From Candidatus Chryseopegocella kryptomonas (GTDB lineage Bacteria > Bacteroidota > Ignavibacteria > Kryptoniales > Kryptoniaceae): a DNA stretch of 64,000 nucleotides. Location: NCBI RefSeq assembly GCF_001536065.1, contig NZ_CZVW01000001.1, positions 1 to 64,000 of the forward strand, written 5' to 3'. The notes below the pieces were generated by a model. That model made no database searches. It saw only the letters and a list, made by a program, of their open reading frames with translations, and was not told where the DNA came from. The position numbers and the translations under genes are program-made. Shown here in pieces: positions 28,284 through 41,772 of this stretch. The first letter of the stretch is position 1. Each line of letters starts with the position of its first letter.

Positions 28284-31079
28284 ATGAGGATTGCGAAGGC
28301 ATTTTTTATCTCAATTTTGGCAACAGCACTTTCTTTCTCTCAGGGAGTGAGAGAATTTTCAATCATTATCAACCCGGACAGTTTGCTTTTGTTGTATTCA
28401 CGCAATATATGGGATAAAACATATGTTCCGATGAGGTTTGTCCCGGAGGATGGTTCAGGACACGCTGGGGGAATAAGATTCAAGGGGCACTCATCAAGAT
28501 ATTATCCGAAGAAACCTTTCACTGTTAAGTTCAACAAGGGGCAAGAATTTGAAGGATGGCGTGAGATGGGGTTTAACGCAATGTATACGGATAAATCTTT
28601 AATGCGGGAGGAACTCGCGTGGCAAATTTCAAGAAAGCTTGGAATAATTGGACCTGAGACATATTATGCAAATCTTTACATCAATGGGAAAAATTACGGA
28701 CTTTATCTTTTTGTAGAAAGAATTGATGAAACCTTCAAGCGAACTCCGGAAAAATATGGATTTATGAAGGGTGGTTCAATGTATGAGCCGGTTGATGATT
28801 ATCATATGGGTGATCTTTTTATCCCGCTGGATTCAAATGATTACTTCAAATTTTATGACAAGAAATTTCCAGCAGATAGCAACTACTCCGATTTAATTCA
28901 ACTCATAAAAGAAATAAACGAAACTCCTGCGGAAGATTTCCACAATTTCATTGAGCGAAAATTTATAGGTGAAACAGTTTTAAACTGGTTCCTGCTTAAC
29001 ACATTAACTCATATGGGAGATACATACAACAAAAATTACTATCTTTATCACGACTCTGTTTCGGATAAATGGCTGATTATACCCTGGGACTATGATCTTT
29101 CTTTTGGGAGAGATGGAACAGGTGTCTTGCCTTATCCTTTGAACCTTTTGAACGATAAATTTAAATACTGGTATATGTTACCCTATCACGGCGTTGATAA
29201 TCCTTTGAAGATCAAGTTCTTTCAAAATTCAATCCTTGTTTCCAGATTCAAGCAAAAACTTGATTCTGTGCTAACTTACATTTTTACAGAAGATAAGATG
29301 CTCGCTTTGATTGATTCGTTGAAAAATTTGATAAGAAATTATGTTTATCGCGATGAATTTAAATGGGGAACGAACAAGGAATTTGATGAACAGGTTGAGG
29401 CATTGAAATACTATGTTACTGCGAGAATATTTTTCCTTTACAAGTGGCTTTCAAACTATTGGCCAGGTGAAGAAAATAAAGCGACATTGAGAATAACCCG
29501 GCTTGACACGGTTTATCACTTTGTTGATAAAAACGGTCGCTTGCTTGGAAGCATTTGGTTTTATGAGGCAAATGGACTTGATAGTTTAACCGTTATAGTT
29601 TATCCAGATAGCATTCCTCCGTATTTGCCTGATGATGTTTTGCCAGATAAATATGTCAGAAGAGTTTTTAAAATTATCCCGTATCCATCAAGTGCGAAAT
29701 TTAGAGCGAGGATAAGATTGGAATATAGAGATGAATCATTGACAAGAACTGAGCTTGGAGTGGGCATTTTGGATGAACATTTTTTGAAATTACATTATTT
29801 TGATGGTCAATCATGGAAACCGCTTGAGACAAATGTTAATTCATATGCAAATACTTTAACTGTTGATAATGTAAGCGATGAAGTTTTGAATGAAAACACA
29901 ACTTTGTCCGCATTTATCCCAGTTGATTACAAATTGCGGTGGAATAAGATAGAGACCTTATCTTGGGATAAACTTTTGAAAATAAAATTTGCGAATAAAG
30001 ACACTGGTTATGTCGTTGGGGAGACAAGCTCAATTTTCATCACAAAAGATGGCGGGAGGACATGGCTTTATAGGACAAAAGCCTTGGGGAAGGAATTAAA
30101 ATTAAACGATATTGCGTTTGCGGATTCGCTTGTTTATATCGTTGGTGAGCAAGGACTCGTTTATAAAGGTAAAATTGGCGATACGCTCTGGACACAAATT
30201 GAACTTGGAACGAGGGATAATTTCAAGCAAATTGGTTTTTATAATGGAAGATATGGATTTATAAGAGGCGAAAGTGAATTTTATTACACAAGCGATGCTG
30301 GAAATACTTGGCAGAAATTGTCTTTTTATGTAAATGGTGAAACGGAAATAAAAAGCGAAGATGCTTTCGCAAGTGTAAAGAAAAATTCAATAATTCTATG
30401 GAGAGCTGGCTCTAATGATTCTGTTTCAGTTTTTGTGAGCTATGTTGATACATCGTTGAGAAAAATAAAATTGTATAAAGATGGAGTTTTCTATGTTGTG
30501 GCAAGCGATGATTCAATTTATGTTGTCAAAGATACTATCGTGATTTCAAGACCTCTCAAAGCAAGGGTCAACGATATAAAGATAATTGACTCATTGAAAA
30601 TTTTCGTCGCCTGTGATGATGGAGTTGTTTTATACACGAAAGATAGTGGAAATTCCTGGCATCTTCAACCGATTGGAGTTACAAACGATATTTATTCAGT
30701 TGAATTTATTGATTCGCTGAAAGGTTTTGCAGTTGGAAATTTTGGCTTGCTTTTAAGCACGGAGCAAGGGGGATATACGAAAGTTATCTTTGCTCAAAAC
30801 CAACCAGAAGTTCCCGCTGTATTTAAACTCCATCAAAACTATCCTAATCCGTTTAACAGTTCAACGAAGATTTATTATGAAGTTCCGTATCCTTCGGAGG
30901 TGAAAATTGAGGTTTATGATATACTTGGCAGAAAAGTTGCGACACTTGTTGATGGGTATAAAAATTCAGGGGTTCACTTTGTTGATTTCAGTGCGGTTAA
31001 CCTTGCAAGCGGAATTTATTTCTATGTTATGAAGGCGAAGAACATCATTATCTCAAAGAAAATGGTTCTTTTAAAATAA
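28284..31079 (+). CDS. secreted CotH-kinase-family protein with YCF48-like repeats and type IX tail
   Basis: This 931-residue protein starts at ATG 28284, where the signal peptide begins (M-R-I-A-K-A-F-F-I-S). Residues about 25-400 form a CotH-type domain: G-G-I-R-F-K-G-H-S-S-R-Y-Y-P-K-K-P, and the active-site stretch P-W-D-Y-D-L-S-F-G-R-D (near 266-275), matching the metal-binding Asp pair of the CotH protein kinases. Residues about 560-830 contain photosynthesis-stability (YCF48)-like propeller blades (T-K-D-G-G-R-T-W). The tail is a type IX signal (H-Q-N-Y-P-N-P-F-N, I-L-G-R-K-V-A-T-L, S-G-I-Y-F-Y). First gene of a nine-gene operon; its phosphorylation target is unknown. Confidence 0.88.
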   Translation: MRIAKAFFISILATALSFSQGVREFSIIINPDSLLLLYSRNIWDKTYVPMRFVPEDGSGHAGGIRFKGHSSRYYPKKPFTVKFNKGQEFEGWREMGFNAMYTDKSLMREELAWQISRKLGIIGPETYYANLYINGKNYGLYLFVERIDETFKRTPEKYGFMKGGSMYEPVDDYHMGDLFIPLDSNDYFKFYDKKFPADSNYSDLIQLIKEINETPAEDFHNFIERKFIGETVLNWFLLNTLTHMGDTYNKNYYLYHDSVSDKWLIIPWDYDLSFGRDGTGVLPYPLNLLNDKFKYWYMLPYHGVDNPLKIKFFQNSILVSRFKQKLDSVLTYIFTEDKMLALIDSLKNLIRNYVYRDEFKWGTNKEFDEQVEALKYYVTARIFFLYKWLSNYWPGEENKATLRITRLDTVYHFVDKNGRLLGSIWFYEANGLDSLTVIVYPDSIPPYLPDDVLPDKYVRRVFKIIPYPSSAKFRARIRLEYRDESLTRTELGVGILDEHFLKLHYFDGQSWKPLETNVNSYANTLTVDNVSDEVLNENTTLSAFIPVDYKLRWNKIETLSWDKLLKIKFANKDTGYVVGETSSIFITKDGGRTWLYRTKALGKELKLNDIAFADSLVYIVGEQGLVYKGKIGDTLWTQIELGTRDNFKQIGFYNGRYGFIRGESEFYYTSDAGNTWQKLSFYVNGETEIKSEDAFASVKKNSIILWRAGSNDSVSVFVSYVDTSLRKIKLYKDGVFYVVASDDSIYVVKDTIVISRPLKARVNDIKIIDSLKIFVACDDGVVLYTKDSGNSWHLQPIGVTNDIYSVEFIDSLKGFAVGNFGLLLSTEQGGYTKVIFAQNQPEVPAVFKLHQNYPNPFNSSTKIYYEVPYPSEVKIEVYDILGRKVATLVDGYKNSGVHFVDFSAVNLASGIYFYVMKAKNIIISKKMVLLK

Positions 31080-31092
31080 AAAGTTCTGAAAA

Positions 31093-33114
31093 ATGAAAAT
31101 CCAATTTCTCTTTTTGATCGTTATTTTGAATACTACAATTCAAACCTTTCTCTTTGCTGAAAAATTGACATTCCAAAAGTTTGGCTACGATGATATTGTT
31201 TTAACTGGACCGACGCCTGCGGTTACATTGTTTTTGAGAGTTGGTGAAAATGTTGATTCATCAAAAAGTTATATCGTTCTTGACATTGAGCCGTCACCTG
31301 TTTTGAATTTTAAAAATTCCTACATTACAGTTTTGATATGGGATAAGCCAGCGTTGACGGTCAGATTGAGCGATCTGGGGGATAAATTGATAGTTCCGCT
31401 TCGTCAGTTTGATTTGAGTTTTTCTGATTTTATCAAGCTTGACATCAAGGCGAACCTTTCCATAACGATGGACAGATGCTATGACATTATAACAAACGGG
31501 TTGTGGGTTAAGATCAGAAAATCATCTTTTGTTAATGTGGAGTTTAAGCAAAGAATAGGTGTAAAGTTAAAGATCAGCAATTTTTTAAAGTTTCTTGAAG
31601 GTGGAGGTGCAATAGTTATACCATCAAATTTATCCACGATTGAATGTGAAGGTGCGGTCTGGGTTTATTCTTATCTGAGAAAATTGACAGGAAAAGATTT
31701 TGAGGTAGAAACATATGAGACGCTTCCAGATGAGGTGGAAAATTTTGTCATCGTGTCAAGATTTGACAAGATACCTGAAAAATATAAAAAGTCAATAAGC
31801 GGAAAATTCTTGAATAACGATGGATTGATTTATGTTTATTCAGAGCAAACTGCAAAATTTCGGAAGAATGTTCTTGTTCTTACAGGTTTCAATGATGAAG
31901 GATTGAGAAAGGTAATCAAAGCGTTTTTAAATAAAGACATTTTTCAATCTTCGTTTAACAGTTTTCTACTTGTTCGTCAAGCGGTGCAAGAATTGGAAGT
32001 AAAACCTCCGCTTCCACCTTACAAGATAAGTTTTCGTAAGCTCGGCTTCACGAGTGGACGACTTGAGGGGATAGGGAATTTAAGATATGTTTACTCATTC
32101 AAAAATTCTGAACTTGGATTTTCACCGGACAAATTGACGATAAACATAACCGCAGTTTATGCCCCCGTGGTAAGTGCGGTTCGCAATGCGTTTTTCAATG
32201 TTTACTTTAATAACACTTTGATTGAAAGCAAAAGATTAACAGAGGAAGGAAAAATCTCTTACAGCTTTGATGTTGATAGATTTGTTTTGTTGAAAACGAA
32301 CACGATAACGGTTGAATTTGTTTATTATCCGACAAGTGAGGAATGTAAAAATTTGATGGCGAACTTTTTCTGTATGCTTGATGATGAAAGGTCGTATATC
32401 AATGTGTCAAGTTTTTATCGTCCAGATGAATTAAGTTTTGTTTATTTCCCCGAGATGTTTGGTTATGGTGAAACGGTTGCGGTCATCGGTGGCAAGATTA
32501 CGCTTCAAAAGGTAAGATCGCTTGCAAAAATTGTTTATCTTGTAAATTCGGGAATTAAAGAGTTTGAATTCTATCCGTCTGTTTATTTCTCTTCATCCGT
32601 TGATTATGAAATTTTGAAAAACTATAATTTAATTTTGATCCTTGATCCAAATGAGCAATTGATGGAGAAATTTGAAAATTCTCCATTGAAGCCAAGACAG
32701 GGATTTAGAATTTTGAGTTCAGCAACGGGGCGTGTTTTATACACACTCTGGGATACAACATCAATTGGTGTGAGTGAGGTATTTTACGGTGAAAAAGGCA
32801 ATCCTGTGCTTCTTGTTTTTGGAATGGGAAGGTATGCCGATGAAAGAATTTATCAAATGACGAAATCACTTGAAGCGAAATTTCCTGACATCAGCGGGAA
32901 CATAGGAATAGTTGATGGTGAGAAAAGTTACTTTTTCAGAGTTGAAGCGGGACTTTTGAAAGTTCAATATCCAGGGGAGAGAACATTTCTTGACATTTTC
33001 AACCAATACAAAATTTTTATAATCGGGCTTGCGTGGGCGTTGTTTTTAGCATTGCTTGTTTATGTCTTCTGGCGTGGAAGGAAAATGGCAAGAAAAGTTA
33101 TGGAAAGAAAATGA
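31093..33114 (+). CDS. BcsB-like periplasmic subunit of a polysaccharide synthase
   Basis: This 673-residue protein resembles the cellulose synthase B subunit: signal peptide (about 1-22), F-x-x-x-G-Y-D-D-I-V-L-T-G-P, paired carbohydrate-binding and flavodoxin-like modules (N-L-S-T-I-E-C-E-G-A at 178 onward; a second set after 300), and one C-terminal transmembrane anchor (I-I-G-L-A-W-A-L-F-L-A-L-L-V-Y-V-F-W) with a basic tail. BcsB guides the growing glucan through the periplasm and activates BcsA. The GT2 protein three genes downstream is the likely partner. The stop shares ATGA with the next gene. Confidence 0.78.
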   Translation: MKIQFLFLIVILNTTIQTFLFAEKLTFQKFGYDDIVLTGPTPAVTLFLRVGENVDSSKSYIVLDIEPSPVLNFKNSYITVLIWDKPALTVRLSDLGDKLIVPLRQFDLSFSDFIKLDIKANLSITMDRCYDIITNGLWVKIRKSSFVNVEFKQRIGVKLKISNFLKFLEGGGAIVIPSNLSTIECEGAVWVYSYLRKLTGKDFEVETYETLPDEVENFVIVSRFDKIPEKYKKSISGKFLNNDGLIYVYSEQTAKFRKNVLVLTGFNDEGLRKVIKAFLNKDIFQSSFNSFLLVRQAVQELEVKPPLPPYKISFRKLGFTSGRLEGIGNLRYVYSFKNSELGFSPDKLTINITAVYAPVVSAVRNAFFNVYFNNTLIESKRLTEEGKISYSFDVDRFVLLKTNTITVEFVYYPTSEECKNLMANFFCMLDDERSYINVSSFYRPDELSFVYFPEMFGYGETVAVIGGKITLQKVRSLAKIVYLVNSGIKEFEFYPSVYFSSSVDYEILKNYNLILILDPNEQLMEKFENSPLKPRQGFRILSSATGRVLYTLWDTTSIGVSEVFYGEKGNPVLLVFGMGRYADERIYQMTKSLEAKFPDISGNIGIVDGEKSYFFRVEAGLLKVQYPGERTFLDIFNQYKIFIIGLAWALFLALLVYVFWRGRKMARKVMERK

Positions 33115-34210
33115 AGAAAATTCTCCTTTCCTGCTCTTGCTTTTTTATTCCTGTTCACCTGTGATATACAGAGTTAATCATTCAAGGTTAAGAGAATTAG
33201 AAACAAAGGCAATTGATGAGATCAAACGAAGGTTGAGTTTGGGACTTCCATCAAGACCAAATGGATTTTGCTATGCGATTGACCTTGCTGAAATTATGCA
33301 AACAGGTGTTGAAATCGGCGATTCGTCTATGTTTAGCAGTGCTTATGAGATTTTGAAAAAACATTACATAATTCGTGATTCGTGGATTGATAGCTCAATT
33401 TTGTGGAGATACAAACCCGAAGTTGAGCCAGATGCTTCTGGAACTGCGGAGACAATTCATTGTGCGCATGCAATTTTTCTTGCGTATAAAAAGTGGAAAA
33501 AGGAAGAATATAAAAGAGTAAGCTATTCTCTCGCAAGGGCTTATTTAAAACACGGCTATATGATTGACTCAAATCGGTTCATTGTAAAAAATTATTTCAA
33601 CTATCAAACGAGAACTCTTTCAGAAAACACTTATCTTATCAACCAGCGTCCTGATTACTTATACGAAATTGGGCTTGAAAACAACGATTCAGAGATGTTA
33701 AATAAAGCGAAGTTAATGTATAATGCGATCATCGGTGGCTATGTTGGGAATGGATTTTTTTACTCAATATATGATGTTGGAGTTTTAACCGTAGATCCTG
33801 GTTCATCAGGTTATTTTTCTCCGAATTCTGTTTTTCCGTTGATTTCTTCAGTTGATATAGCAACTTCAATCAAAGGTTTTAATGATAAGCCAGCTTGGGA
33901 GATTTTGAAATTTTTTGAAAATAATTTTGGAAGATGGAGCGATTTTTATGTTTATAATAATGGCAAATTTATTGAACAAGAGAAAACAAATTCAGTTAAT
34001 CTGGCTGTGCTTTCAGCAATGATTGATCTTTATTTTGCCTTGGGTAAGCCAAAGGCATATAGAAATTTAATAGTTTATCTTTCGCAGATTCTTGCCGATA
34101 AAGTAAATGTATTCTTGACAAGTTTATCGCCTGAAAATCTTGATTCTTATTATTTTGAGTTGGCAAGAGCGATAAGAACAATGCGCAGGATAAACGAGAA
34201 TGGGATTTAA
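33111..34210 (+). CDS. lipoprotein with six-hairpin glycosidase-like fold; frameshift in its leader
   Basis: Most of this ~367-residue protein lies in the frame that stays open from 33056, and contains helical hairpins and E-P-D-A-S-G-T-A-E-T-I-H-C-A-H-A, reminiscent of (alpha/alpha)6 glycosidases. The natural start, ATG 33111 in the ATGA overlap with the BcsB-like gene, is in another frame: M-K-K-I-L-L and then a stop at 33162. A -1 shift near C-T-T-T-C-C (33126-33131) would join them into MKKILLFLLLLFYSC-SP, a perfect lipoprotein leader. So one base is probably missing, by sequence error or real mutation. Position suggests a BcsZ-like trimming enzyme; the family is not proven. Confidence 0.6.
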
Positions 34211-35018
34211 AATTTTGAAATATCCCGTATTTTTATGTTTTGTCGTTTCTTCTGTTTTTGCAGGTGCGTGGACACGGGGGAAAGGAAGCATTCTTCTTGT
34301 GCCATACTGTTATTTTTATCAGGCAAGCGGATATTACGACACGAATTGGAAATTCAATCTTCTTCAAAACAGCGGATATTTTGATGGACTTGGTTTTGGA
34401 TTATACTTTGAATATGGTTTCAGCGATAGATTTAATTTGGTTGGAAATTTTTCTTTTGTGAGAAACAGATGGATTGACAATTATAACTACAAATCAAACA
34501 GCGATTTTGGGGATTTTGAGATTGGATTGAAATTAAAAATTTTTGAGTCAAGGTTTGTGTTAAGTTTTCAAACTCTTGCGATTATACCTGCTTATTCAAT
34601 GGATAGAGAACCATTGATTGGGTATGGAGAATATGCTGGTGAAGTTAAAATTCTTTTCGCTGGCGGATTGAGACCGTTTTCTCTTAATTCTTATTTTAAC
34701 ATTGAACTTGGATACAGAAGATTTTATTCAAAGGTTGCGCCACAGGTTAGATTTCAAATTTTATATGGAATTAATCTCGGTTGGAAATGGCAAGCGATTT
34801 TTCAAATTGACGGCGTCAATTCAATTGGTGAAGGAACATTTTCAACAAGATTTAATCCGTCAATTGAGACGGACTATAACGAAGGGAAATTAAGCGTTTC
34901 GCTTGCGCATAGATTCACATATAAAGCGTGGTTTCAGGGTGGCGTTTTCTATGATGTTTATGGCAGAAAAATTGGCGCTGGAAGAGGTTTCTTCATAGCA
35001 TTGTGGATTGAGATTTAA
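34200..35018 (+). CDS. outer-membrane beta-barrel protein
   Basis: This 272-residue protein starts with a signal peptide (about 1-22, ending V-F-A-G-A-W) and is made of alternating aromatic/hydrophobic strands throughout (G-L-G-F-G-L-Y-F-E-Y-G-F-S-D-R-F-N-L-V-G-N). It ends in a strand closing with W-I-E-I. I cannot name the family; it resembles transporter-like barrels of about 12 strands. Its start overlaps the preceding gene by 11 bases, and the GT2 synthase follows 14 bases later, so an outer-membrane pore for the polymer, as in other synthase-dependent systems, is a fair inference. Confidence 0.7.
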   Translation: MGFKILKYPVFLCFVVSSVFAGAWTRGKGSILLVPYCYFYQASGYYDTNWKFNLLQNSGYFDGLGFGLYFEYGFSDRFNLVGNFSFVRNRWIDNYNYKSNSDFGDFEIGLKLKIFESRFVLSFQTLAIIPAYSMDREPLIGYGEYAGEVKILFAGGLRPFSLNSYFNIELGYRRFYSKVAPQVRFQILYGINLGWKWQAIFQIDGVNSIGEGTFSTRFNPSIETDYNEGKLSVSLAHRFTYKAWFQGGVFYDVYGRKIGAGRGFFIALWIEI

Positions 35019-35032
35019 ATTTCAATTTCGCT

Positions 35033-36895
35033 ATGATTGAAGAAGTCAAGAAATACTCTGTCAAGGATATTTTGATTGATTCTGGAATTATTGATGAGAG
35101 CGCAATCAATGAGATTGAAAAATTTCAAAGTGAAACTGGTTGGTCTTTTGCGAAAGTTTGTCTGACATTTGGTTATGTGAGCAGAAAAAAATGGCGTGAG
35201 ATTGTTGAATCGCTTGGATATGAGATGGTTGATGTTAAGAAGGAAAAAATTGACCCGAAGATTGTCTCTTATATGAATCTTTTAATTATGGAGCAATATC
35301 TTGGAGCGCCGATAAGAAAAGAGAACGGCAAAGTTATACTTGCTATGGTTGACCCGACGGATGCTGAATTTGTTGAGATTGTGAAGAGAGTTTTTAAAAG
35401 CGATGTTGAGATAATTTTTTCAATGGATGTTGATGTAATCTGGGTTTTACATAAATATCTCGGACCTCCTTTTTGCAGGATTGCGATTTATAATTTGCTC
35501 TGGAAAGATCCCGATAGGTCGGCGGTTTTAACTTTGACGACGAAACAAGTTATTATCATCGTTGGTTTGTTGACCCTTTATCTTATTTATTTTTCAATTA
35601 ACCCAATTGGTGGGGTTGTGCTTTTAAACATTTTGATTAGTTTTTTATTTCTTTTTTCAATCCTTTTTAAGTTCACGCTTTCTCTTGTTGGAGCAAGATA
35701 TGAACTTTATGAAGTCATAACGCAGGAAGAGATAAATGCACTCCGAGATGATGAACTTCCAGTTTACACGATACTTCTTCCTGTTTATAAAGAGCCCAAG
35801 GTCATAGCAAAACTTGTTGAAAGCATAAATCGTATGGATTATCCAAAGTTAAAACTTGATGTGAAGCTTTTACTTGAAGAAGATGATTTGGAGACGATAG
35901 ATGCGGTGAGAAGACTTGATTTCCCTGCGGTTTTTGAACCACTTGTTGTGCCATCTGAACAGCCAAAGACGAAACCAAAGGCGTGTGATTATGGATTACT
36001 TTTCTCTCGTGGTAAATATCTGACAATTTATGATGCCGAAGATATTCCAGACGCAGATCAACTTAAAAAAGCAGTTGTGGCTTTCAAAAAACTTCCAGAT
36101 GAATATATCTGCGTTCAATGTGCCTTGAACTATTACAATAGAGAAGAAAATCTTTTGACCCGTATGTTCACGCTTGAGTATTCTTATTGGTTTGATTATA
36201 TGTTGCCTGGGCTTGATAGGTTGAAAATGCCAATTCCTCTCGGTGGGACGAGCAATCATTTCAAGAAAGATATTCTTGAAGAACTTGCTGGCTGGGATCC
36301 ATTCAATGTCACAGAAGACGCAGACCTTGGGATAAGAGCTTATGCGAAAGGTTACAAAGTTGCTGTTTTAAATTCAACAACTTATGAAGAAGCTAACAAA
36401 GCAATTAAAAACTGGATAAGGCAACGCTCAAGATGGATCAAAGGTTATATGCAGACATACCTTGTTCATATGCGACATCCCATTGAATTGATCAAAAAAT
36501 TGGTTTTTAAAGGTTTCCTTGGTTTTCAACTTTTTGTCGGCGGGACTCCGTTCGTTTTTCTTGCTAATCCTATCCTTTGGTTTGTTTTCACAACATGGCT
36601 AATTACCAAAGCTGAAATTATAAAGCTCTTTTTCCCCGATTGGGTTATGTATGTTTCAACTTTTAATCTTTTGTTTGGAAATGCGATCGTAATTTATATG
36701 AATATGATGTCAGTTTTCAGGCGAAAGTATTACAATCTCTTACCTTACGCATTGCTGAATCCATTTTATTGGATTTTGCATTCAATTGCAGCTTATAAGG
36801 CACTGTGGCAGTTGATTCAAAATCCATTTTACTGGGAGAAAACAGAGCACGGATTAAGTGAGATATTTAAGAAAGAAAAAATCCAAAAGAGATGA
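35033..36895 (+). CDS. polysaccharide synthase: GT2 with an N-terminal MshEN-like domain
   Basis: This 620-residue protein has two parts. Residues about 5-150 resemble the GspE/MshE N-terminal (MshEN) fold: V-K-D-I-L-I-D-S-G-I-I-D, then G-W-S-F-A-K-V-C-L-T-F-G-Y-V-S, followed by a small domain (V-I-L-A-M-V-D-P-T-D). Two helices (about 165-220) lead to the GT2 domain: P-V-Y-T-I-L-L-P-V-Y-K-E, Y-D-A-E-D-I-P-D, T-E-D-A-D-L-G and Q-R-S-R-W. More membrane helices follow. The layout recalls E. coli NfrB, a c-di-GMP-controlled glycosyltransferase with MshEN, but in the other order. The R-L-G residues of the nucleotide motif are not conserved, so c-di-GMP binding is doubtful. Confidence 0.85.
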   Translation: MIEEVKKYSVKDILIDSGIIDESAINEIEKFQSETGWSFAKVCLTFGYVSRKKWREIVESLGYEMVDVKKEKIDPKIVSYMNLLIMEQYLGAPIRKENGKVILAMVDPTDAEFVEIVKRVFKSDVEIIFSMDVDVIWVLHKYLGPPFCRIAIYNLLWKDPDRSAVLTLTTKQVIIIVGLLTLYLIYFSINPIGGVVLLNILISFLFLFSILFKFTLSLVGARYELYEVITQEEINALRDDELPVYTILLPVYKEPKVIAKLVESINRMDYPKLKLDVKLLLEEDDLETIDAVRRLDFPAVFEPLVVPSEQPKTKPKACDYGLLFSRGKYLTIYDAEDIPDADQLKKAVVAFKKLPDEYICVQCALNYYNREENLLTRMFTLEYSYWFDYMLPGLDRLKMPIPLGGTSNHFKKDILEELAGWDPFNVTEDADLGIRAYAKGYKVAVLNSTTYEEANKAIKNWIRQRSRWIKGYMQTYLVHMRHPIELIKKLVFKGFLGFQLFVGGTPFVFLANPILWFVFTTWLITKAEIIKLFFPDWVMYVSTFNLLFGNAIVIYMNMMSVFRRKYYNLLPYALLNPFYWILHSIAAYKALWQLIQNPFYWEKTEHGLSEIFKKEKIQKR

Positions 36896-38475
36896 GAAAT
36901 GCCGTTTTATCCATAGCATTAGCGTCGTTGGTTTTTCTTTATTACTTAACACTTGGAATGACTTTTCAAAATAATGGCTATCTTCATCCTGAGGGAATTT
37001 TTTTGATTGAGAAAGCACTGCTTGCGTTGAAGGGTAATCCACCACGACTTGAGAACATAGGTTTAATTTATCCGCCATTGCCGTTTTTCTTTACTTTTCC
37101 TTTTATAATTTCCGTCAATCCAATAATTGCTCCGGTGTTTGCATCTGCGTTTGGAATGGCGGTGCTTTGTGCGGTTTTAATGTACAGAGTTTTAAAACGA
37201 AATTTATCCTTTGTTTTCGTTTTCTATCTTTTAATGATTTTGACAATAAATCCGCTTGTTTTATACTCTGCGACATCTGGTGGAAGTTCTTATCTTTATG
37301 TTTTGTTTATCACGATATTTTTTGCTTTCATTTTTGAGTATTATGAGCGAAATGTGAGTTTTTATCTTGCGGTTGCCGGAATATCGCTCGGGATTTTGGC
37401 ATTGATAAGATATGAGATTGTGTTTATTCTTGTCTTTTGGACTTTGGCAAATTTTATACTTGCTGTGGAAACAACACTTGAACCGGGAGTAAGTTATAAG
37501 AATTTTTACAGGTTGTTAAGAGAACTTCCTGCTTATAGACAAACTTTTTTCCGAAAGGTCATGGCGGTTTATCTTATGATTTTTATACCACCAATCGTTT
37601 CCGCTGTGAGCTGGATGTATCTGAACTGGATTTTCACATCAAATCCATTTCATTTTTTGAGCAGTCCTTATTCATATTTCAGAACTTTGAGAACCTTTGT
37701 TCTTTATAATCCGATTTTGCTTGAGGTAAGGGACAATTTTTTTAAAAGTTTGATTTATATCTTGATGGAAGTTTTCATCTCCGCTCCAACATTTTTGATC
37801 ATATTTTTGTTGTTTGGTCATAGGTTGTTTTTTATACTTGCGTTAACTTCTCCAGTGATTTCCCTTTTTATAAGTTCATTTCTGGGGATTTCGCTTTTAA
37901 ATGTTGATTTCTTTGTTCCGTTTGTTTTTCTTTCTTTCCTTGTTCTCGTTTATGCGTGTGAGCAAAAGAAAACATTGCGTAAAGCAATTATTCTACCGCT
38001 CTTTGGAATTGTCCTGATGATTTCTTCATTCACTGGTTATTATAAGCTCAAAAATTCAAATTATCCTGAGGAAAAAATTTTTGCAAGGGTTTTGCTTGGT
38101 GGCAATGCAGATGGAATTTTTGAAGATGAGAAAAAGGTTGCTGAATTTTTAAAAATGTATGCCGATTCAAACGATGTGATTTTGTTTGATGATGCGGATG
38201 GATATCCGATTGTGGTTTTTTATGGTTATCCTAAAAATATAGTTTTGCCTTATCAATATGAGTTTTCGTCCGTTGTTGAAAGACCTGAGGTTTATGCTGA
38301 TTTTATCGTTGTTTATAATCCAGATACATATGAAGGTGGGCGTGATGCGTTGAATTTAAGACACAAAGATTTATTTTATCGTGGGGCTGATGGGCTTGAT
38401 TTCGTTGCAAGTTTCGGAAACTTGAGAATTTTTCGCTCAAGTTACAGAGCAAAGAGTAAAATTGCTGGGAGGTGA
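36892..38475 (+). CDS. polytopic membrane protein, GT-C glycosyltransferase-like
   Basis: This 527-residue protein has about ten hydrophobic helices and a C-terminal soluble part of about 130 residues. The first periplasmic loop reads N-G-Y-L-H-P-E-G-I-F-L-I-E-K and P-P-R-L-E-N-I-G-L-I-Y-P-P-L-P, like the acidic first loop of GT-C enzymes (PMT/ArnT type) that use lipid-linked sugars. The C-terminal D-V-I-L-F-D-D-A-D-G-Y-P and V-L-P-Y-Q-Y-E-F also recall that group. It overlaps both neighbours (ATGA at 36892), so it is an integral part of the polysaccharide operon. The substrate is unknown. Confidence 0.7.
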   Translation: MRNAVLSIALASLVFLYYLTLGMTFQNNGYLHPEGIFLIEKALLALKGNPPRLENIGLIYPPLPFFFTFPFIISVNPIIAPVFASAFGMAVLCAVLMYRVLKRNLSFVFVFYLLMILTINPLVLYSATSGGSSYLYVLFITIFFAFIFEYYERNVSFYLAVAGISLGILALIRYEIVFILVFWTLANFILAVETTLEPGVSYKNFYRLLRELPAYRQTFFRKVMAVYLMIFIPPIVSAVSWMYLNWIFTSNPFHFLSSPYSYFRTLRTFVLYNPILLEVRDNFFKSLIYILMEVFISAPTFLIIFLLFGHRLFFILALTSPVISLFISSFLGISLLNVDFFVPFVFLSFLVLVYACEQKKTLRKAIILPLFGIVLMISSFTGYYKLKNSNYPEEKIFARVLLGGNADGIFEDEKKVAEFLKMYADSNDVILFDDADGYPIVVFYGYPKNIVLPYQYEFSSVVERPEVYADFIVVYNPDTYEGGRDALNLRHKDLFYRGADGLDFVASFGNLRIFRSSYRAKSKIAGR

Positions 38476-38486
38476 AACATAAAGAT

Positions 38487-39542
38487 ATGAAATTTCTTCG
38501 GTTAATCGTCGCTTTGTTTTCATTGTTAATTTTGATTCTTTTTTTGAATAATGCCTGGATTTGGGATGATATAAATTCGCTTGGAGAAGTTTTGCCAGCA
38601 AAAGAGTTTCATTTGATTCGTTCGCAGGATGATAGAATAGTGACGATTTTAAAAAATAATTTGAGCGGAACTGTTGAAAGATATTCAATTATAAGCGTGG
38701 AAAGAGGCGATGCTATAAGAATGAGTTTAAATAATTCTTTTAAAGTTGGCGGATTTGTAAATTCTGGCGATACGATTTGTAAGTTAATTTCTGCTGAGAC
38801 GATGTATCAGATCGTTAGATTGGAGGGTCTTATTTCAACTGAAATTGCAACTTTAAATTTTTACAAAACTGGTGAAAAAACCGCAATTATAGAAGAGGCA
38901 AGAGGTAGATTGGAGTCAGCCCAACAACAGCTTGAATATCAGGGAAAAGTCCTTGAAAGGATGAAAATTCTTTATGAAAAAAATCTTATCTCTCCACAAG
39001 AATATGAGACGGCAGAGAATTTATTTAAGCTTTATCAGGCAAATGTTTCAATTGCGAAATCTCAACTTGAAGCACTTGAAACGGGGGCAAAACCAGAGCA
39101 AATTCAATTAATTGAAACAAGAATTGAATCTTTGAAAAATGAACTTGAAGCGCTCAAACAAAAAGCACAATCTTACATCATAACATCTCCAATTTCTGGC
39201 GTAATTTTCAAAATTTCTTCTGGCGATACTATATTATCTATGGCGGATATTTCGGCGTTTTGTTGTTTAATTCCAATAAATGTTGATGAAAGGGCAAAAG
39301 TTAAAAATGGTCAAATTGTAGAAATAAAATCATCTGAAATTTTACAAGCGAAGATTGATGCGGTTGAAAATTCGGTTAGAGTAATAAATTTAAAGCAAAT
39401 GGTTTTGGCAAGGGCGATAATTGAAAACAAAACTGAAAATTTAGTTCCACATCTCGTGGTTAAATGCAGAATTAAAGTTGGCAGGGTTAAACTTCTTGAT
39501 TATGTTTATTTTTTTGTCAAACAAATTTTTACCTCGGGATGA
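38487..39542 (+). CDS. HlyD-like membrane-fusion (adaptor) protein
   Basis: This protein of about 351 residues has one N-terminal transmembrane segment, a lipoyl-type half (G-G-F-V-N-S-G-D-T-I), a long coiled coil (about 80-215, E-E-A-R-G-R-L-E-S-A-Q-Q-Q-L-E), the second lipoyl half (I-T-S-P-I-S-G-V-I-F-K-I-S-S-G-D-T) and a beta domain. ATG 38487 is preferred; GGGAGG ends at 38472 and a GTG there (GTGA overlap) is the alternative. Such adaptors bridge inner and outer membranes in export or synthase systems. No ABC or RND pump is adjacent, so it probably serves the polysaccharide machine. Its stop shares ATGA with the VTC gene. Confidence 0.75.
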   Translation: MKFLRLIVALFSLLILILFLNNAWIWDDINSLGEVLPAKEFHLIRSQDDRIVTILKNNLSGTVERYSIISVERGDAIRMSLNNSFKVGGFVNSGDTICKLISAETMYQIVRLEGLISTEIATLNFYKTGEKTAIIEEARGRLESAQQQLEYQGKVLERMKILYEKNLISPQEYETAENLFKLYQANVSIAKSQLEALETGAKPEQIQLIETRIESLKNELEALKQKAQSYIITSPISGVIFKISSGDTILSMADISAFCCLIPINVDERAKVKNGQIVEIKSSEILQAKIDAVENSVRVINLKQMVLARAIIENKTENLVPHLVVKCRIKVGRVKLLDYVYFFVKQIFTSG

Positions 39543-40285
39543 TAAGGTTTGAGTATAAATATCTTGCTCCAGTTGAGTTGATTGAACGATTGCGATTGGA
39601 AATAATGCCGTATGTAAATTATGATGAGTATGCGAATGCAAGTAAAATCGGTGAATATACAGTCCGAAGCATATATTTTGACAATGATAGATTTCAGTAT
39701 TACAACGATAAAGTTGATGGTCTTGAGATAAGGAAAAAAGTTAGAGTTCGTGGTTATGGGGCTAAGGATGAAAGTAGCATTGTTTTCCTTGAAGTCAAGA
39801 GGAAAAAAGGTGTGTATATTTTGAAAAGCAGAGCTCCTTTGACATTTGAGAATTTGGAAAAGATATTTGTCTGCAAAGATTTTGAGAGATATATTTTAAA
39901 CAAGCCGATAGAGAACGCTGTGAAAAGTGCGAAAAATTTTTTCTATTATGTTAATGTGGATAACCTTAAGCCAGTCATTCTTGTCGTTTATGAGCGTGAA
40001 GCGTATCAAGGTAAATTTGATAATTCGTTGAGAATTACATTTGATAAAAATTTAAGAGCTTCTCTTTCATCTCGTTTGACTGATTTATTTGACGAGTTGA
40101 ATATGCGATATGTGATGAAGTCATATTTTACTGTTGAATTTAAAGGGAAGACAAAAATTCCACACTGGTTCAGGAATATAGTCGCAAAGTATGAGCTTAA
40201 ATTTATGGCTTTGTCAAAGTATGTTTTATCTGTTGATGCTTTTGATTTTTCTGAGTTAAAACAAATCACAAGATTGGGATTATGA
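39539..40285 (+). CDS. VTC-domain polyphosphate polymerase-like protein
   Basis: This 248-residue protein has the tunnel-fold VTC domain that makes polyphosphate from ATP in yeast Vtc4. The conserved basic and acidic tunnel residues are seen in R-F-E-Y-K-Y-L, Y-T-V-R-S-I-Y-F-D-N, L-E-I-R-K-K-V-R-V-R-G-Y, V-F-L-E-V-K-R-K-K-G and Y-E-R-E-A-Y. Unlike eukaryotic VTC there is no SPX domain or membrane part. Bacterial VTC proteins commonly neighbour CotH kinases and DUF4956 proteins (my recollection), and both are here. Whether it makes polyphosphate or moves phosphate groups in this system is unknown. Confidence 0.87.
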   Translation: MIRFEYKYLAPVELIERLRLEIMPYVNYDEYANASKIGEYTVRSIYFDNDRFQYYNDKVDGLEIRKKVRVRGYGAKDESSIVFLEVKRKKGVYILKSRAPLTFENLEKIFVCKDFERYILNKPIENAVKSAKNFFYYVNVDNLKPVILVVYEREAYQGKFDNSLRITFDKNLRASLSSRLTDLFDELNMRYVMKSYFTVEFKGKTKIPHWFRNIVAKYELKFMALSKYVLSVDAFDFSELKQITRLGL

Positions 40286-40953
40286 TTGAGGATTTGCAGA
40301 ATATATTTACGATTTCAATTTCGCCTGTGGAAGTGATAAGGAATTTGTTTGTTGCTTTTGTGTGTGGGTTTATAGTTTCGGTATTTTATAAAATTAGTTA
40401 CAGGGGGATAAGTTATTCAAGCACGCTTGTTAATTCGTTGATAGCTCTTTCAATGATAACATCAGTTGTAATAATGGTTATAGGCAATAATCTTGCAAGG
40501 GCTTTTGGGCTTGTTGGGGCGATGTCAATAATAAGATTTAGAACAGCGATAAAAGACACGCAGGATATAGTTTTCATATTTTTTGCTCTTGCTGTGGGAA
40601 TGGCAAGCGGTGTGGGTTTGTATGCGGTTTCTATAGTTGGGACGCTGACAGTTGGGCTGGTTATGTATGCCCTTTCAAGGTTAAATTACGGAATGCCAAG
40701 GAGAAAAGAATTACTTTTGCAATTTACTTATGAAGCAATAGACGAAAAAGAACCCGAATATACTTCTGTTATAAAAAGCGAATGTAAAGATTTTAAGCTG
40801 ATAAATGTTAAAAGCCCAAGGGGCGATCTTTTTGAACTATCTTATTACATTAGGCTTAAAGATAAAAGCAAAGCAGGGGAACTTGTCAGGAAACTTTCAA
40901 AATTGCCAGGTGTTAAGAATGTTTCTCTGCTTGCTGATGAAGAGGGGTTTTAA
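40282..40953 (+). CDS. DUF4956 membrane protein
   Basis: This 223-residue protein has four hydrophobic segments (about 20-40, 50-70, 75-95 with G-L-V-G-A-M-S-I-I-R-F-R-T-A, and 95-130) and a cytoplasmic alpha/beta C-terminal domain of about 80 residues. The motif R-F-R-T-A-I-K-D-T-Q-D and the overall plan identify DUF4956, which resembles the MgtC fold. Function is unknown; the family repeatedly stands next to VTC and CotH genes. It overlaps the VTC gene stop (ATGA at 40282) and ends the nine-gene operon, 72 bases before the RodZ-like gene. Confidence 0.87.
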   Translation: MIEDLQNIFTISISPVEVIRNLFVAFVCGFIVSVFYKISYRGISYSSTLVNSLIALSMITSVVIMVIGNNLARAFGLVGAMSIIRFRTAIKDTQDIVFIFFALAVGMASGVGLYAVSIVGTLTVGLVMYALSRLNYGMPRRKELLLQFTYEAIDEKEPEYTSVIKSECKDFKLINVKSPRGDLFELSYYIRLKDKSKAGELVRKLSKLPGVKNVSLLADEEGF

Positions 40954-41025: not shown

Positions 41026-41772
41026 ATGAGTGTAGCTGAAATTTTGAAAAAGGCACGTGAGGAAAAAAAATTAACCCTCAAAGAAATCTCTGCTAAAACG
41101 AAGATAAGCGAGAAATTCCTTGAAAAAATTGAGAATGGAACTTTTGACTTTGCTCCTGAACCTTATGTGAGGGCTTTTTTGAGAAGTTATGCGAGGGTTG
41201 TGGGGTTGAATCCGGATGAGGTGATAAAACTTTATGATAGTGAAATTTCCGCTTTAAAACCGAAGGAATCAATAAAAGAGGAAAAGGAGAAAATTCAATT
41301 TGATTTTGCATCGTTTGTTTCTGAAAATATATTGTGGTTAATCGGTGGGGCTTTGGTTATTCTGCTTGCTATTTTTATCTTCATAGGGGTTGGGAGAGAA
41401 GAGAAAAAAGAGGTTAGAAAGAAAAGCTTTGAAACTGCGGTTGAGGAAATATCAAAAGCAAATGAAATTCCAATGGAAAAAAAGGAAATGAAGATAGAAC
41501 CAGATAGTTTGGAGTTAAAAATTATAGCTTCTGATTCTGTTTGGTTTAATGTGCTTGTTGATAGCGCACAGGCGAAAGAATTTTTAATGCCACCGAATAC
41601 AAGTTTAACTTTGAAAGCGAGAAATAACTTTAATTTCACAATTGGAAATGCTGGTGGAGTTAAGTTTATATTGAATGGGAATGAACTTGAACCTATTGGG
41701 CGAAAGGGTCTCGTAGTAAGAAATTATGTGATTGATAGGGAGAAATTAAAATCTTTAACATTGCATAGATAA
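41026..41772 (+). CDS. RodZ-like cytoskeletal protein (HTH, one membrane helix)
   Basis: This 248-residue protein has an N-terminal helix-turn-helix of the HTH_25 type (I-L-K-K-A-R-E-E-K-K-L-T-L-K-E-I-S-A-K-T-K-I-S), a basic/acidic linker, one transmembrane segment (about 105-124) and a periplasmic DUF4115-like beta domain (W-F-N-V-L-V-D-S, K-F-I-L-N-G-N-E-L). RodZ links MreB to the envelope and affects rod shape; the HTH binds MreB rather than DNA in studied cases. ligA follows 27 bases later. Confidence 0.82.
   Translation: MSVAEILKKAREEKKLTLKEISAKTKISEKFLEKIENGTFDFAPEPYVRAFLRSYARVVGLNPDEVIKLYDSEISALKPKESIKEEKEKIQFDFASFVSENILWLIGGALVILLAIFIFIGVGREEKKEVRKKSFETAVEEISKANEIPMEKKEMKIEPDSLELKIIASDSVWFNVLVDSAQAKEFLMPPNTSLTLKARNNFNFTIGNAGGVKFILNGNELEPIGRKGLVVRNYVIDREKLKSLTLHR

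Follow-up and report, generated by a model that had tools for sequence, protein, structure and literature searches.

We propose that the genes for a HlyD-type periplasmic adaptor, a VTC-type polyphosphate polymerase domain and a DUF4956 membrane protein form a single unit that makes and exports polyphosphate, that a CotH kinase is the usual partner of this unit and that polyphosphate is a possible donor for CotH. We give this reading a probability of about 0.45. The genes lie in a 64,000-nucleotide stretch of DNA (the window) from a heat-loving bacterium of the Candidatus Kryptonia group.

The unit closes a run of nine genes (28284 to 40953), all on the + strand and separated by gaps of no more than about 15 bp or joined by short overlaps. 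The run opens with a CotH kinase gene (28284..31079; PF08757, 4e-63), the product of which has BNR-like repeats and a T9SS sorting tail (TIGR04183, 3e-11). Six genes stand between CotH and VTC. They code for a BcsB-like periplasmic protein of a polysaccharide synthase (31093..33114; PF03170, 2e-17), a lipoprotein of unassigned family (33113..34210; no match in Pfam or PDB), a protein guessed from its sequence to be outer-membrane-like (34200..35018; no Pfam match), a BcsA-like GT2 synthase with N-terminal MshEN (35033..36895; PF13632, PF05157, cellulose synthase chains at 1e-11), a polytopic membrane protein that is GT-C-like by eye (36892..38475; no Pfam match) and the HlyD/MacA/EmrA-type adaptor (38472..39542; HlyD profiles). 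The lipoprotein, the outer-membrane-like protein and the polytopic protein belong to the synthase operon and are conserved in the genus. VTC (39539..40285) and DUF4956 (40282..40953) follow, and an ATGA overlap is found at both the HlyD/VTC and the VTC/DUF4956 junctions. An earlier note on this DNA had described the second of these overlaps and had placed CotH at the 5′ end of the same operon, with DUF4956 eight genes further on; both descriptions were confirmed. A RodZ-like gene on the same strand (41026-41772) starts 72 bp past DUF4956 and may be co-transcribed. Three of the proteins were compared with PADLOC defence models and gave no match.

A DUF4956 alignment was used to collect 73 non-duplicate named loci from Bacteroidota, Ignavibacteria, Neomarinimicrobiota, Calditrichota, Zixibacteria, WOR-3 and others. 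Sufficient upstream sequence was available for 70, and in 65 of these a HlyD gene lies directly upstream of VTC, mostly with a gap of less than 20 bp; being picked by similarity to the window protein, the sample is uninformative on more distant types. The triad is spread over phyla of the FCB group and is also present in most VTC loci of the class. The adaptor is thus the first gene of the phosphate module, and the BcsB-like protein is a neighbour outside it. The earlier note had pictured an export machine inserted between CotH and the VTC/DUF4956 pair; this put the boundary in the wrong place, since the last "inserted" gene is part of the module itself.

In five loci of monoderm bacteria (Planococcus, Pseudobutyrivibrio, Nonomuraea, Paenibacillus and Acetoanaerobium) VTC and DUF4956 occur without HlyD. 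Presence of the adaptor in most double-membraned hosts and its absence from single-membraned ones is what would be expected if the product must cross the periplasm. Both the constancy of the triad and these monoderm loci speak for a single unit. Against it stand the Bacteroides-type loci L030 and L075-L077, in which VTC and DUF4956 lack HlyD in diderm hosts, and the scarcity of TolC-type neighbours. Such a gene was found directly after DUF4956 in two loci only: L114, a Cyclobacteriaceae locus, has a TolC-type OEP gene (Pfam OEP, 2e-33) overlapping the last bases of DUF4956, and a relative of this gene comes after DUF4956 in L120.

Other neighbours recur as well. Arylsulfotransferase-like proteins, mostly T9SS-tailed, adjoin CotH, HlyD or VTC in several lineages (L024, L028, L032, L065, L106), and a related beta-propeller protein is encoded directly downstream of DUF4956 in L018, L027, L062, L082, L087 and L119; in L018 and L027 it is SdiA-regulated/phytase-like by Pfam. 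Counts of ASST and GH16 were inflated by common T9SS tails and were not used.

The structure model of the adaptor resembles MacA and EmrA (fold match, E 5e-17). Its constant partners among the genes profiled are VTC and DUF4956, and a recurring pump gene (ABC, MFS or RND) was not noticed among the neighbours read. The DUF4956 protein (223 aa) matches PF16316 at 2e-15, with 57.3 bits against a curated cut-off of 30.6. By structure model and fold search it consists of a helical membrane domain and a C-terminal ACT-like domain. The latter was the only part with any match in the fold search, which returned no channel homologue, and this counts against the proposed unit. We know of no function assigned to DUF4956.

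Further support for the unit comes from co-occurrence. VTC was found in 31 of the 149 genomes of the class, accompanied by DUF4956 in all except one in which the locus is broken (G006, described below). CotH is present in all 31, versus 34 of the 118 class genomes without VTC. Among 247 genomes of the phylum the corresponding figures are 42 of 43 and 54 of 204; the tests ignore relatedness, although 33 genera are represented among the phylum genomes with VTC. In the sample of 73 loci CotH lies within about five genes in 24. The window CotH aligns to the solved Bacillus CotH (5jd9) at 3.5e-30, and its T9SS tail goes together with the presence of SprA in all seven genomes of the genus. The association is not without exceptions, and these weigh against the proposal. 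The control genome of Bacteroides ihuae has VTC and DUF4956 but lacks CotH, as does one of the 43 phylum genomes with VTC, so that CotH is a usual and not an obligatory partner. The 34 class genomes that have CotH without VTC indicate in turn that CotH need not use the product of VTC. Nor do VTC-linked CotH proteins form one clade: they were clustered in a quick tree, but with 10 changes.

The arrangement in the window also admits the reading that the module works for the polysaccharide: it would phosphorylate the polymer, or regulate its synthase and export. The earlier note had favoured action on the polymer or its export over storage polyphosphate. Analysis of congeners bears on this directly. 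The GT2 gene was found at 77-79% identity in five of the six other genomes of the genus (the contig of G005 is too short for an assessment of the module), and the lipoprotein at 59-60% identity in three. The complete nine-gene order is retained in G003, which, with the window itself, provides the single-operon argument for a polysaccharide role. G002 still has CotH, the synthase and DUF4956, alongside a frameshifted HlyD and a VTC reduced to its C-terminal third. In G004 the stretch from BcsB to the polytopic membrane protein is preserved, CotH survives as a remnant, and none of HlyD, VTC and DUF4956 is left. A deletion in G006 has fused roughly the first 64 residues of VTC to CotH, beginning near CotH residue 107, giving the order BcsB-GT2-membrane protein-HlyD-VTC::CotH-lipoprotein-OMP. 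These are draft assemblies, with no Ns at the G002, G004 and G006 junctions. VTC has therefore been lost by different deletions in three congeners, with the synthase open in all three, and in G006 CotH had lain directly downstream of VTC. These facts argue for phosphate genes that can be separated from the synthase and against a fixed split between CotH and VTC, even in this one genus. Both observations speak against action on the polymer, and survival of the synthase agrees with a separate unit.

The pattern that the earlier note had named as contrary to its reading, VTC/DUF4956 pairs of relatives always lying away from GT2/BcsB-like genes, is nearly what was found: BcsB is absent from all 28 class VTC genomes outside the genus. 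None of the 73 named loci had a GT2 or BcsB match. Nine class genomes outside the genus have BcsB and no VTC, a non-overlap that on its own is not significant (p 0.2). The note was right, on the other hand, that phosphate modules stand beside polysaccharide synthases in several lineages, and the polysaccharide role draws support from CotH-PPP-DUF4956 genes adjoining Pel genes (PMC7112168), from VTC-DUF4956-CotH together with GT2 in Planococcus and within an EPS-type locus in Pseudobutyrivibrio, and from glycan genes close to the triad in Neomarinimicrobiota. In the latter (L137, L080) the triad is found amid GH16, GH5, GH94, GH2 and GH3 genes, which suggests a link to beta-glucan metabolism there. 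Overall, we consider direct action of the module on the polymer to be possible but not favoured, and a polysaccharide role as a whole to be rather improbable.

The synthase itself is only a distant relative of cellulose synthase BcsA/BcsB, judging by profile scores (CelA equivalog, 71 bits where the cut-off is 699; BcsB equivalog, 28 bits where it is 922). The c-di-GMP-binding consensus of its MshEN domain looks degenerate by eye. Assignment of the lipoprotein as a GH8/BcsZ hydrolase was rejected, as its sequence gives no support. Profile scans of the window named no Pel families; the GT2/BcsB-type synthase is there instead.

The VTC gene is present in a single copy in the genome. Its 248-aa product matches Pfam VTC (PF09359) at 1e-42 over profile positions 2-232 of 235. 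A first scan of genome contigs with this single protein gave no match, and the profile built from 22 VTC proteins found yeast Vtc4 at 1e-21. With Vtc4 numbering checked, K200, R264, R266, K281 and K294 of Vtc4 correspond to K7, R69, R71, K87 and K96 of the window protein. We take R153, R165, E200, S226 and K227 to be equivalents of Vtc4 R361, R373, E426, S457 and K458, on the basis of the alignment and the Vtc4 literature. R69, R71 and K227 are invariant across the 22 sequences, and E200, at the position of the metal-binding E426, and most basic residues of the tunnel are present. In yeast, R264 and R266 of Vtc4 are essential residues (PMC8749416); K458 has been termed catalytic (PMC4641920). 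The position of Vtc4 K455 is occupied by A224. The earlier statement that tunnel residues look intact holds for the essential ones, with K455 as an exception; with the essential Vtc4 residues conserved, activity of the enzyme is a reasonable prediction. Homologues with 26-30% identity were found on unannotated gut phage records MT836222, MT835527, MT837266 and MT838813.

Replacement of K455 counts against the proposed unit and leaves room for a different product or substrate of the tunnel enzyme, as in a polyphosphatase or an enzyme transferring phosphate to a membrane acceptor, with DUF4956 and HlyD exporting something else. E5 of the window protein could point the same way. It is invariant in the class, Vtc4 has Thr at this position, and, placed by position only, E5 may match Glu-4 in the acidic patch of tunnel (TTM) phosphatases (PMC4641920). 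The equivalents of R264, R266 and K458 and the E426-x-K428 pattern are, however, Vtc4-like, and we regard a different tunnel activity as distinctly unlikely.

PPK1 was detected in 102 of the 149 class genomes and in none of the seven genomes of the genus (G000-G006). That VTC is an ordinary intracellular maker of storage or stress polyphosphate, with HlyD and CotH as unrelated passengers, is very unlikely: in a genus without PPK1 a VTC with conserved essential residues could be the sole source of polyphosphate, but linkage to HlyD is near-constant across several phyla, VTC has been dispensable in three congeners with a synthase, and PPK1 alongside VTC in 23 of the 31 class VTC genomes argues against storage as the general role and agrees with a separate exporting unit. 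The earlier note's doubt about storage has accordingly stood up as far as the general function is concerned, while its suggestion of action on the polymer or its export is unsupported.

In the one-unit reading, VTC would polymerise polyphosphate from ATP at the cytoplasmic side of the inner membrane, DUF4956 would be its partner in that membrane and the likely conduit for polyphosphate, and the adaptor would take the product over the periplasm, in the direction of a TolC-type channel if the host offers one. To our knowledge, the phosphoryl donor of secreted bacterial kinases outside the cell is an open question. CotH is predicted to be secreted to a site where ATP is scarce, which makes exported polyphosphate a candidate donor for it; we offer this part as speculation. 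A still more complete scheme, in which the triad, joined by TolC if there is one, spans the envelope as a polyphosphate synthase-exporter that feeds T9SS-secreted CotH kinases and so allows ATP-independent extracellular phosphorylation, is doubtful. In Candidatus Kryptonia this accessory unit sits within an operon for a GT2/BcsB system that resembles cellulose synthase; it may modify the surface product of that system, which does not need the unit. Because the polymerase-adaptor operon recurs, and almost always in genomes with CotH, the kinase-donor and the DUF4956 questions both become testable. If the proposal is true, the operon would have its counterpart in the yeast VTC complex and would give polyphosphate a route across two membranes.

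Clusters of CotH, VTC and DUF4956 side by side, which the earlier note had mentioned for other bacteria, are indeed known. CotH, a polyphosphate polymerase and DUF4956 have been described beside Pel genes in Gram-positives, with a suggested role of the kinase in Pel regulation (PMC7112168), and NELoc-2 of C. perfringens has a VTC/CotH/chitin-synthase cluster (PMC2879425); plasmids of Planococcus and Pseudobutyrivibrio provide further cases. Among the papers searched, DUF4956 is mentioned in three, and we found none that describes either DUF4956 or VTC as forming a unit with an adaptor; subscription journals were mostly outside the coverage, so that novelty of the adaptor-containing triad is provisional.

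The Gram-positive Pel operons, with the order CotH-PPP-DUF4956-DUF4832 (PMC7112168), share with the window the combination of CotH, a VTC-type polymerase and DUF4956, again as neighbours of a synthase-dependent polysaccharide operon. There the three genes are contiguous and the synthase is Pel, whereas in the window CotH and VTC are six genes apart and the synthase is of the GT2/BcsB type; the window further adds the adaptor directly before VTC and the T9SS tail on CotH. In C. perfringens NELoc-2 (PMC2879425) and on the Planococcus plasmid, CotH, VTC and GT2 are likewise clustered with a protein of DUF4956 type or size, but, unlike the window, without an adaptor. Synteny of the Firmicutes order CotH-690aa-HEAT-GT2 with CotH-BcsB-lipoprotein-GT2 of the window was considered and rejected: the 690-aa and HEAT proteins of Planococcus have no detectable similarity to the window BcsB or lipoprotein, and only the GT2s are related. 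Adaptors of the MacA/EmrA/HlyD type have the same TM anchor, helical (coiled-coil) hairpin and beta domains as the window protein, the conserved genetic partners of which appear to be VTC and DUF4956 in place of an ABC, MFS or RND pump. The yeast VTC complex couples polyphosphate synthesis with translocation. The window VTC resembles its Vtc4 subunit in the tunnel polymerase domain, in keeping the essential residues and in having a membrane partner of its own; it differs in having neither SPX nor a fused membrane domain, in having DUF4956 as its partner and in being encoded alongside a periplasmic adaptor.
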